64,000 nt of DNA from Halolamina sp. CBA1230 (lineage in GTDB: Archaea > Halobacteriota > Halobacteria > Halobacteriales > Haloferacaceae), in contig NZ_CP054587.1 in the NCBI RefSeq assembly GCF_002025255.2, forward strand, positions 2,604,001 to 2,668,000, written 5' to 3'. Positions 42,569-49,517 of the stretch are shown here, piece after piece (position 1 is the stretch's first letter; each line of letters starts with the position of its first letter). Position numbers and translations under genes: made by a program. The notes below the pieces were generated by a model. That model worked only from the letters and a program-made list of their open reading frames with translations, was not told the origin of the DNA and ran no database searches.

Positions 42569-43016
42569 ACCGCGACCGCAACAGCATCTCGATGCATGAC
42601 CACTTGCGACCGCAGTGCGCCGGGGACGAGCCCCGTCATCAGAAATCGGAGATTTCTGATTGGCAGACGAGAGACTGCGGCTCTCGTCAACGGCGCAGCA
42701 TGGAATCCCCACCCCTCGCCCCGCGGCCGGCGACCGTCGACGGCCGCGAGGCGTCCACCGCGACCGCACCGCCACGGCCGTCGGCGCGTGACGTGAGCGC
42801 GTCCCTGCGCGAACGAGCGCGCGAGGGACGAGCGACCATCGGGAGCGAGTCGGCTGGGGAGGTTCGTGGGCTGTGCGGTTGGGAGGGACTGAAAGGGGCT
42901 GGTCGCTCGACGACGGCGGCCGAAGCAAGCACTGGAGCGAACGGAGTGAGCGAAGCGCGCAGCGAGGTCCCCGAGTCGAGCGGGCAGGGGCTTTCACGGT
43001 GTTGCCGTGCTCGGTT
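42569..43016. repeat. Hairpin element copy E (left end as B, right end as C, extra hairpins)
   Basis: The gap 42484-43106 has no gene. The left end carries GCAACAGCATCTCGATGCAT and GACCACTTGCGACCGCA (42598-42614). Hairpin 1 survives as CGGGG-ACGAG-CCCCG (42621-42635). Two hairpins absent from A, B and D follow: a perfect 10-bp stem (42638-42647 with 42651-42660, loop GGA) and a perfect 8-bp stem (42666-42673 with 42681-42688). An 8-bp GC stem lies at 42722-42748. The right side is the GGGACTGAAAGG module (42885-43004), not the TGCGGTCACAAGTGG end. Confidence 0.85.
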
Positions 43017-46815: not shown

Positions 46816-47760
46816 GTGACTGAACTCCGTAACGCCGCCGAGACGGCGATTCACCAGTGTCTCGACCTCGGAGCCGGGGAGTCGATCGCGATCGTGACCG
46901 ACGACGAGCGCCGTTCCATCGCGGAAGCACTCTACGAGGTGGCGGCCGAGACCACCGACGACGCGACGTTTCTCCAGTACCCGCCGGGCGACCAGCACGG
47001 CCAGGAACCCCCGGAACCGGTCGCGGCGGCGATGAAGGCCGCCGACGCCTTCCTCGCGCCGACGACGCGCAGCCTCTCGCACACCCGCGCTCGCTCGGCC
47101 GCCTGCGAGGCGGGCGCACGCGGCGCGACGCTGCCCGGGATCACCGAGCGCGTGATGGTCGAGGGGCTCGACGCCGACTACGAGGCGATCGCAGCGCACT
47201 GCGCGGACGTGCTTGAACAGGTAGAGAACGCCGACGAGGTCCGCGTCACCAGCCCCGCCGGCACCGACATCACCTTCGCGGTCGGCGATCGCGAGTGGCA
47301 CGAGGACACCGGGATGGTCCGCGAGCCGGGGAGCTTCTCGAACCTCCCCGCGGGCGAGGTGTTCGTCGCCCCCGAGAGCGCCGAGGGGACGTTCGTCGTC
47401 GACGGGACGATGATGCCCCACGGGCTGCTCGCCGACGAGCAGGAACTCCGCTTCGAGGTCGAGGACGGCCACGTCACTCACCTCTCCGACGAGGCGGTTC
47501 GGGAGGACGTCGACGCCGCCCGCGAGGAGGTCGGCGACGCCGCGACCAACGTCGCCGAGTTGGGCATCGGCACCAACGTCGGCGTCGACGAGCTGGTGGG
47601 CTCGGTGCTGCTCGACGAGAAGGCCGCCGGCACGGTCCACATCGCGATCGGCGACAACGCCTCGATTGGCGGCGAGACCGAGGCGCCGATCCACCTCGAC
47701 GGCATCCTCCGCGCGCCGACGGTGTACGCCGACGGCGAAGAGATCAGTCTGCCCGAGTGA
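46816..47760 (+). CDS. M29-like aminopeptidase (thermophilic aminopeptidase T family)
   Basis: A 314-residue protein with a GTG start at 46816. The N-terminal half has a [19 protein letters not shown] fold, and the C-terminal half carries the probable metal ligands in [23 protein letters not shown] (conserved E/F-x-N-x-PxGE pattern), [13 protein letters not shown] and TVHIAIGDN. These match the M29/COG2309 leucyl aminopeptidase group, but shorter than typical M29 enzymes (about 370-410). Activity is therefore likely but not certain. The gene diverges from gap and is followed by the hairpin cluster at 47790-48180. Confidence 0.8.
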
Positions 47761-47789
47761 GGGATCGCGCGGCAGTCACTCGCCGTTTT

Positions 47790-48179
47790 GGTTCTACACA
47801 GTCACGGTATGGGCTCCGTGGTCGCGGCACAGAGGCCGCGACAGGTCACGCACCGTCAGCAGAAATCAAAGATTTCTGGTTGGCTAACGGGAGTGCTACG
47901 AGAGGCGCGTTGCGCCTCTCGGCATCACCGGAAATCAGAGATTTCCGGTTAGCAGTCAGAACTCGAAGAGTTCTGACGACATGACGAGAGAGCGAAGCTC
48001 TCTCGAACCACTTCGCTCCCGTGAACGTGACTGGTGTTACTCCATACGCGGTCGGCGTACGGTCCCCGACGACGACACGGAGGTCGTCGTCGGTCGCGTG
48101 CCGACCGCTACACAGTCACGGCATCGAGTTTCGTGGTGCCGACACGGAGGTCGGCACAGGTCACGCGCCGTGACTGGTG
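47790..48179. repeat. Hairpin cluster (eight perfect palindromes) between convergent genes
   Basis: No gene lies in 47761-48179. Perfect stems with loops are: 47821-47828/47835-47842 (ACAGAG), 47860-47867/47871-47878 (AAA), 47899-47908/47912-47921 (GTT), 47927-47936/47940-47949 (AGA) and 47955-47964/47968-47977 (GAA). The others are 47985-47993/47997-48005 (GAA), 48066-48076/48083-48093 (ACGGAG) and 48136-48143/48150-48157 (ACGGAG). CTACACAGTCACGG occurs at 47794 and 48108, AGGTCACGC follows hairpins 1 and 8, and GTGACTGGTGTTACTCCA occurs twice. The AAA hairpin shares its flanks with one in element E. Confidence 0.9.
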
Positions 48180-49517
48180 TTACTCCACGTACTCGTACAG
48201 CCGTTCGTTCATCCGGCCGCGCCCGGCGAACACGAACTCTCCGTCCGGCGTCGTGAACTCCTCGACGTCGACGGTCATGTCGTGGTTGTGGACGTCGTGG
48301 ATCTGCTCGTACTCCTCGAAGTCGAGGTCGTAGCGGTCCTCGAGCTGTCCGTCGATGTTTAGCTCCGCGATCTCCTCTTCCCAGCCGTCGGCGACGGTCT
48401 CGGCGTGGATCTCCGCCTGCGCGCCCGAGCCGTAGGAGCCGACCAGTAGCTTCTCGCCGGCCAGGTCACGACCCTCCTCGGCGGCCTGCTTCAGGGCGCT
48501 CGCCCGGGCGACGTGGACCGAGCCGGTGTACCAGTTCCCGACCTCGCGGGCGATCGACAGCGTCGGCTCGATCGTGTCGGCGTACCACTGTTGGTAGGCG
48601 TCGGTGCGCTTCAGGTCGTCCATGTAGTCGCGGATCGCCTCCTCGTAGGCCTCGCGGTCGTCGAACTCGCCCTCGCGGGGCTGGCGGCCGATCTCGCCGG
48701 CGAGCTCGTCCTCGATCTCCGTGTCGCGGATCATGTGCCGGTAGCCCAGCAGGCCGGCCTTCCTAACCATCCCCGGGAACGGCGTGTGGAACGGGATGTA
48801 CGTGAAGTCGTCGGGATGCATGTCCCACGCGACGGACTCGAAGTCCTCGACGGCCTCGCGCATCCGGGCGAGGTACACCTGCATCGAGCGCTTTCCGTCG
48901 ACGCTCGGGAACTGCTGGTTCGGCTTGAGGAAGTCCGTCTCGTCGGCGCTGCCGTACCCCTGCTCCGTCGAGAGCTCGACGAGGCTCGGGTCCTCGGTGA
49001 TCAGCATCGCCACCGCGCCGGCGCCCTGGGTCGCCTCGCCGCTGGACCCACGGGCGTACAGCGCGGTGTCGGTCGCGACGACGATCGCCGAGCGGCCCCG
49101 ATTGCGCCCGGCCTTGATCCAGTTGTACGCGTCGTCGATCGACTGCGTGCCGGCGATACAGGCGAACTTCCGCTCGCCCTTGTTGGCGTGGTGGAAGTCG
49201 CCGTCGTACACCTCCTCCAGACAGCCCGCGATGTACGTGGAGACGGGTTTGGAGTTGTCGAACGCGGACTCGGTCGCCACGTCGATGCGGCCGATGTCGT
49301 CCGGCTCGAGCCCCTTACGGTCCATCAGCCGCTTGGCGGCGTTGGCACCCATCGTGACGATGTCCTCGTAGGTGTCCGGGAACGAGGAGTTCTCCAGCCC
49401 CAGCCCCTTGCGGTACTTGGCCGGATCCTCCTCCTTCTCGGGAGCGAACGTGCCCGGCAGGTCGAGTTTGCACTTGCCCGCCCAGATCTCGACGGCGTCG
49501 ATGCCGACCGTAGTCAT
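48180..49517 (-). CDS. hmgB: Hydroxymethylglutaryl-CoA synthase
   Basis: HMG-CoA synthase condenses acetyl-CoA and acetoacetyl-CoA for the mevalonate pathway that builds archaeal isoprenoid lipids. The 445-residue thiolase-fold enzyme is of the eukaryote/bacterial type that haloarchaea use. Catalytic residues are E83 (ATESAFD), C120 (FACIAGTQ) and H244 (PFHTPFPGM). SYGSGAQAE near residue 380 is the usual late G-S-G motif. No other mevalonate gene is in the window. The 3' end faces the hairpin cluster directly: its TAA abuts the last repeat. Confidence 0.96.
   Translation of the reverse strand: MTTVGIDAVEIWAGKCKLDLPGTFAPEKEEDPAKYRKGLGLENSSFPDTYEDIVTMGANAAKRLMDRKGLEPDDIGRIDVATESAFDNSKPVSTYIAGCLEEVYDGDFHHANKGERKFACIAGTQSIDDAYNWIKAGRNRGRSAIVVATDTALYARGSSGEATQGAGAVAMLITEDPSLVELSTEQGYGSADETDFLKPNQQFPSVDGKRSMQVYLARMREAVEDFESVAWDMHPDDFTYIPFHTPFPGMVRKAGLLGYRHMIRDTEIEDELAGEIGRQPREGEFDDREAYEEAIRDYMDDLKRTDAYQQWYADTIEPTLSIAREVGNWYTGSVHVARASALKQAAEEGRDLAGEKLLVGSYGSGAQAEIHAETVADGWEEEIAELNIDGQLEDRYDLDFEEYEQIHDVHNHDMTVDVEEFTTPDGEFVFAGRGRMNERLYEYVE

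Follow-up and report, generated by a model that had tools for sequence, protein, structure and literature searches.

REPs are extragenic repeats that lie at the 3' sides of genes and sometimes supply the stop codon (PMC3733652). Together with BIMEs, they comprise the GTAG and CGTC superfamilies (PMC3733652). REPs have also been reported for archaea in general by a survey, which does not mention haloarchaea by name (PMC12306157). In Haloferax, hairpins located downstream of or within genes are able to end transcription, and a structural terminator without a T-run was reported to be functional in Haloferax volcanii (PMC7237163).

The locus described here lies in a window of 64 kb, that is, the whole stretch of DNA that was analysed, of the genome of Halolamina sp. 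CBA1230 (3.47 Mb, four contigs). It is composed of two palindromic repeat families, A and B, and a form related to B, which is referred to as C. Like REPs and BIMEs (PMC3733652), family A is dispersed, extragenic and hairpin-forming and is mainly found at the 3' side of genes (32 of 37 clusters). However, a unit of A spans 71 nt and forms two covarying helices with conserved internal loops, whereas the REP palindrome has 20-40 bp; it lacks the GTAG/CGTC foot tag, its ends in alignment A1 reading NNRCC and GTGT; neighbouring copies are arranged head to tail in all multi-copy clusters, in contrast to the opposite orientation seen in BIMEs and dimers; and no RAYT partner was found. REPs are the nearest relatives of A by behaviour, and A works like a REP, but it is not classed as one. 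Family A also resembles the Haloferax 3'-end hairpins, which, however, are single structures derived from RNA ends (PMC7237163), whereas A is a repeat family known from sequence. Family B is similar to REPINs in that it is a short unit of two inverted hairpins with a short spacer, has the same plan in its reverse complement and occurs in many dispersed copies; it differs from them by a 2-bp end duplication, 3-nt loops, its archaeal hosts and its nesting in other palindromes, and again no RAYT was found. No earlier description of A or B was found in the open-licence literature on haloarchaeal palindromic repeats, and Rfam yielded no match near the gathering threshold, only chance matches. The locus is a tandem array of A units behind the stop codon of a gene, one unit of which was split by a nest of B and C elements; with moderate confidence, A is read here as a REP-like element of gene 3' ends and B as a mobile passenger.

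Eight perfect stems between two convergent genes

The stop-to-stop gap between the convergent genes for an M29-like aminopeptidase and HMG-CoA synthase (HMGS), located at 47761-48179, contains exactly eight perfect, non-overlapping stems of at least 8 bp, all within 47821-48157. The stems are 8-11 bp long; five enclose 3-nt loops (47860-47878, 47899-47921, 47927-47949, 47955-47977 and 47985-48005) and three enclose 6-nt loops (47821-47842 with the loop ACAGAG; 48066-48093 and 48136-48157, both with ACGGAG), exactly as counted in the first-pass annotation of this DNA. The claim made there that such a density exceeds chance was borne out: 500 dinucleotide-preserving shuffles of the gap gave a mean of 0.054 and a maximum of two stems, and none of the other 419-nt bins of the window contains more than two. 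An assembly error, which had been considered as well, is unlikely, since copies of the 3-nt-loop block with 97% identity are present elsewhere in the genome and relatives of the 6-nt-loop copies are found in the corresponding gap of other Halolamina, which were assembled independently. HMGS of this genome is 91-93% identical to that of Halolamina species. The eight stems are distributed over three A units (three stems), an outer B unit (one), a C-like element (two) and an inner B unit (two), which are arranged as follows:

46816-47760, + strand: Peptidase_M29, gene for the M29-like aminopeptidase, convergent with HMGS (Pfam PF02073)
47773-47794, - strand: fourth A unit, a degenerate remnant (read from the sequence)
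47796-48037, - strand: A unit 3, in the pieces 48028-48037 and 47796-47855, with the stem 47821-47842 (ACAGAG) (R1, 59 bits on 47796-47865; nhmmer)
47856-48027, + strand: nested insert of 172 nt, with CG at either edge (47854-47855 and 48026-48027)
47860-47878, + strand: outermost B unit, hairpin 1 (partial R2 match, 34 bits at 47855-47889)
47887-48022, + strand: outermost B unit, hairpin 2, formed by ACGGGAG (47887-47893) and CTCCCGT (48016-48022) and split by the C-like element
47894-48015, + strand: C-like twin hairpin (47899-47921 and 47985-48005) within the B stem (in L014 and L027, C copies are undivided)
47925-47979, + strand: innermost B unit, TC[H1]TAGCA[H2]GA, with the hairpins 47927-47949 and 47955-47977 (R2 match, 71.9 bits)
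48037-48044, - strand: copy of the HMGS gene end (17-nt repeat, 48028-48044 being equal to 48171-48187)
48048-48108, - strand: A unit 2, with the stem 48066-48093 (R1 match, 38.1 bits)
48110-48180, - strand: A unit 1, intact, with the stem 48136-48157 (ACGGAG) (R1 match, 88.1 bits; alignment A1)
48180-49517, - strand: gene for HMGS, whose stop codon adjoins the A array (Pfam PF01154, PF08540)

Read in gene sense, A unit 1, which has a fold z of -5.5, starts on the final base of the HMGS stop codon. The outer stem of A unit 2 differs in sequence, yet it is fully paired (48048-48056 with 48100-48108). The 17-nt repeat of the HMGS end shows a tandem duplication of the gene end together with an A unit, and the same junction is also present in L051. 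In A unit 3, the outer stem is interrupted at CG by the insert, which is built like a Russian doll, as judged from its sequence: a C-like twin hairpin interrupts the second hairpin of a B unit, and the linker of this C-like element, GCATGA where it is unsplit (L014, L027), is in turn interrupted by another B unit. This innermost unit is flanked by a duplicated CA (47923-47924 and 47980-47981), as revealed by a test for target site duplications.

In this gap, three other Halolamina species (L048, L050 and L051) carry 2-4 A units and no 172-nt insert; in L049, the arrangement is absent. The insert block recurs with 97% identity at G000:C1:1230954 and G000:C1:2325033 in the genome studied here (G000). 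Even bigger nests with 7-9 B/C hairpins in a row, which include the 172-nt block of the window, are located at G000:C1:2325000-2325400 (L010) and G000:C1:1230950-1231300 (L009). The genome search showed that the cluster in the HMGS gap is one of dozens rather than unique. Among the roles considered in the first-pass annotation, a nursery of palindromic elements describes the locus well: it holds two repeat families, of which A grew in tandem and B inserted into other palindromes, and relatives possess insert-free counterpart sites. The families, their positions, their nesting and the insert-free sites are apparent from the genome sequences, which lend no support to a recombination or packaging site.

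Family B and the search for a mover

Family B, which comprises the 3-nt-loop stems, is a REPIN-like twin hairpin of about 55 bp, and C is a related form. The B unit reads TC[ACCAGAAnnC.nnn.GnnTTCTGGT]TTGGCA[GACGAGAGC.nnn.GCTCTCGTC]GA; its pairing amounts to 99.2%, and one-sided changes are absent. In 18 of 21 B units, the two letters outside TC agree with the two outside GA, being either CG or CA on both sides (permutation p 0.00015), as expected from a 2-bp target duplication. The B hairpin is preceded by CGTC or CATC, the first two letters of which track the right flank and thus look like target letters. Many B units on both strands are detected by the B model (R2), which has matches in 51 of 60 haloarchaeal genomes; the weaker ones may be unrelated hairpin pairs, and the best matches elsewhere have primary sequence in common. 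About 8 of the 49 B loci of this genome are located inside A units, whereas roughly 0.5 would be expected by a rough estimate if B were spread evenly over the intergenic DNA (A accounting for about 5 kb), and B units within A are also present in G003 (L245) and G004 (L174). We infer that B moves. The window contains a second, isolated B unit in intergenic DNA at 42635-42692 on the + strand (R2, 73.8 bits). In three genera, B units are found in or just behind genes of the tnpB/IS605 type (L020 at G000:C1:2083804; L253 in G013; L258 on the Halobacterium sp. DL1 plasmid CP007061.1), which may reflect transfer of B from genome to genome on IS605 elements or the tolerance of these elements as targets.

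No RAYT partner for A or B was identified among seven Y1 genes, which gave RAYT scores of 26-34 against a cut-off of 80 or no match at all. All seven were typed as IS200 transposases, weaker or broken Y1 matches having been left out of the typing, and their flanks are free of A and B except for one weak A copy, the only one near a Y1 locus, and one weak B match; they were thus rejected as movers of either family. Phages gave no match, and plasmids gave two weak matches, which concern the B part only.

Family A stands directly behind stop codons

Querying the genome with the gap sequence gave 60 partial copies, and reading these told the families apart. Family A comprises the 6-nt-loop stems, which form the inner helix of a two-helix repeat of about 71 nt. 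In gene sense, it reads NNRCC RRYCRCGGC KMGYGACC - inner stem - CTCCGT loop - inner stem - ACGGARC NNNATG CCGYGRYY GTGT; the internal-loop letters GNGACC and CGGARC are conserved, and so, for the most part, is an unpaired C in one of the two arms of the outer helix. A pseudoknot between the loop CTCCGT and the downstream ACGGAG was rejected, as the connectors are too short for an 8-bp stem and loop variants in alignment A1 retain ACGGAG without its partner. A model search detected 71 A matches in 37 clusters of this genome, all but one of them on the main chromosome. The exception is a weak match of 44.6 bits (L132, G000:C2:173742-173811), which sits roughly 160 nt upstream of a transposase gene of the IS200 type, beside a hairpin resembling an IS end. 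Six other Halolamina genomes contain 16-97 matches each, so that A is present in all seven genomes of the genus; no match was found in 33 other genera, and in a second draw of 146 genomes of the order, searched with stricter filters, matches occurred in Halolamina alone out of 56 genera.

In 46 copies from this genome, 92.7% of the pair cells are standard pairs, and 94.7% of the cells are paired in 144 distinct Halolamina copies, alignment A1 being a plain MAFFT alignment and alignment A2 having been made to the model, towards which it hence leans. In the 144 copies, both sides are changed in 589 cells compared with 171.5 in shuffles; the covariation is 0.611 versus 0.212 after shuffling, both-side changes affect 16 of 19 pairs, and slid controls are at most 50% paired.

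Gene contexts were taken from a simple codon-usage caller trained on the window, which mis-called the aminopeptidase on the opposite strand, so that single contexts may err. The 32 clusters that follow a gene share its sense; measured from the end of the stop codon, 30 of them start at -6 to +2 nt, one at -20 and one, which comes after a B insertion, at +56. Nineteen of the 37 clusters lie between two same-sense genes, and within any cluster all copies point the same way. Five clusters lack an upstream gene end, and four of these start 39-43 nt ahead of a divergent gene start (G000:C1:61735, 2000046 and 2784822; G000:C2:173742), flush with a likely core promoter rather than a stop codon. Other haloarchaea have the end of the HMGS protein at the same residue, which means that A sits behind a pre-existing stop that it did not create. 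The idea that A recognises a specific target sequence at stop codons was rejected, as the only upstream letters in common are the in-frame stop, and exceptions lack TAA, TAG or TGA.

The location of A is partly conserved between species. Of 33 A-site genes of this genome, 13 also have A in the corresponding position in a second species (G004), whereas less than one would be expected from the gene numbers. At the shared sites, the A stems often differ wholly in sequence while pairing is retained; at site 1600241, the inner stem differs from that of L183 by a single exchange of A-T for G-C in both arms.

It is a rather unlikely alternative that A is a selfish or neutral palindromic repeat without function, which is tolerated behind genes and whose arms are kept alike by quasi-palindrome correction during replication. 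Such a repeat could be confined to one genus and vary in copy number, its mismatches would be strand-symmetric, as they are here, and neither the tandem duplication that carried along a piece of HMGS nor site turnover (20 of 33 sites have no counterpart in G004) would be surprising. However, 30 of 37 clusters lie within a few nucleotides of the stop, a placement that is hard to obtain by neutral insertion into a gap of 50-300 nt, and the same placement recurs in other species despite replaced stems.

Covariation without a preference for G.U pairs

A constraint acting on RNA from the gene-sense strand would tolerate G.U but not A.C, which corresponds to G.T on the other strand. The mismatches of family A comprise 69 G.U and 59 A.C, whereas 5S rRNA from 30 genomes of the family, counted in the same way, has 78 G.U and 4 A.C, the 5S structure having been predicted from the alignment, which somewhat favours G.U. 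The contrast gives a Fisher p of 1.6e-11, which is a guide only, as the rows are related. Two-way transcription was rejected as the cause of the missing preference, since copies outside convergent-gene gaps are also near balance (22 G.U versus 16 A.C). The near-equality suggests that the constraint is one of inverted-repeat symmetry in DNA and not of single-strand RNA folding; it looks like selection on a DNA hairpin or like arm-to-arm correction.

This result bears on the possibility that A forms a structured RNA at mRNA 3' ends, involved in termination, processing or stability, whose covariation stems from selection on the RNA fold. Such a role would fit the fixed sense orientation directly behind stop codons, the conservation of the place between species, the strong covariation, the strong fold and the conserved internal-loop letters, and a hairpin inserted into a reporter ended 59% of the transcripts in Haloferax volcanii (PMC7237163). 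It is nevertheless unlikely as the whole explanation: G.U is not in excess, which weakens the case for a 3'-end role as RNA, a U-tract is lacking, and five clusters are not located behind a gene end, four of them standing beside divergent gene starts. An intrinsic terminator with a U-tract was rejected, as TTTT is not enriched, occurring in the 60 nt after 6 of 37 A clusters and after 6 of 55 ordinary stops; the T-run-less terminator of Haloferax volcanii (PMC7237163) means that this is not decisive against termination as such. Of the two transcript-related roles considered in the first-pass annotation, the two-way transcription end is conceivable, the elements standing at gene 3' ends in a single fixed orientation, with 19 of 37 clusters between same-sense genes and no T-run, and the processed RNA is weakened by pairing that is kept without the G.U preference seen in 5S rRNA.

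Alternatively, A might be a DNA-structure element at stop codons, the hairpin of which would be read as DNA, either single-stranded or extruded and from either strand, by a putative factor that marks gene ends, with arms renewed by arm-to-arm copying; its covariation would then report DNA symmetry and not RNA structure, but taken as a complete account this appears quite improbable. A structure-guided DNA recombination site similar to integron attC is very improbable: in its favour, the structure of A is conserved above sequence, A directly adjoins stop codons, an unpaired C in the outer helix is mostly conserved and the symmetry is of the DNA type, but A has no core boxes (RYYYAAC or GTTRRRY) in alignment A1 and a freely variable outer helix, and it stays in place behind conserved chromosomal genes, with no behaviour of exchangeable cassettes seen.

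A model for the array and its implications

Standing directly after the stop codon in fixed orientation, the A array grew by tandem duplication, and a nest of B/C twin hairpins, which are REPIN-like and spread across Halobacteria, later split one unit. In the preferred reading, A would be a REP-like element that transcription units retain at their 3' ends. At the DNA level, its arms would stay complementary on either strand, either by arm-templated correction or by selection on the DNA hairpin; once transcribed, it would place a strong hairpin right behind the stop codon, which probably terminates or shields the upstream transcript, thereby separating it from the next gene. Such a 3'-end role for A is plausible. 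B, in turn, may be a mobile passenger with a preference for palindromes, for which A arrays would act as landing pads, and this preference would let hairpins accumulate in A arrays.

Since the usual mark of RNA, the tolerance of G.U, is missing, family A may serve as a natural test case of whether covariation arises from RNA function, from DNA hairpin function or from copying between arms. It also calls for caution, as strong covariation within a repeat family does not prove a functional RNA. The nesting of B, finally, suggests that palindromes serve as targets for palindromes in archaea.
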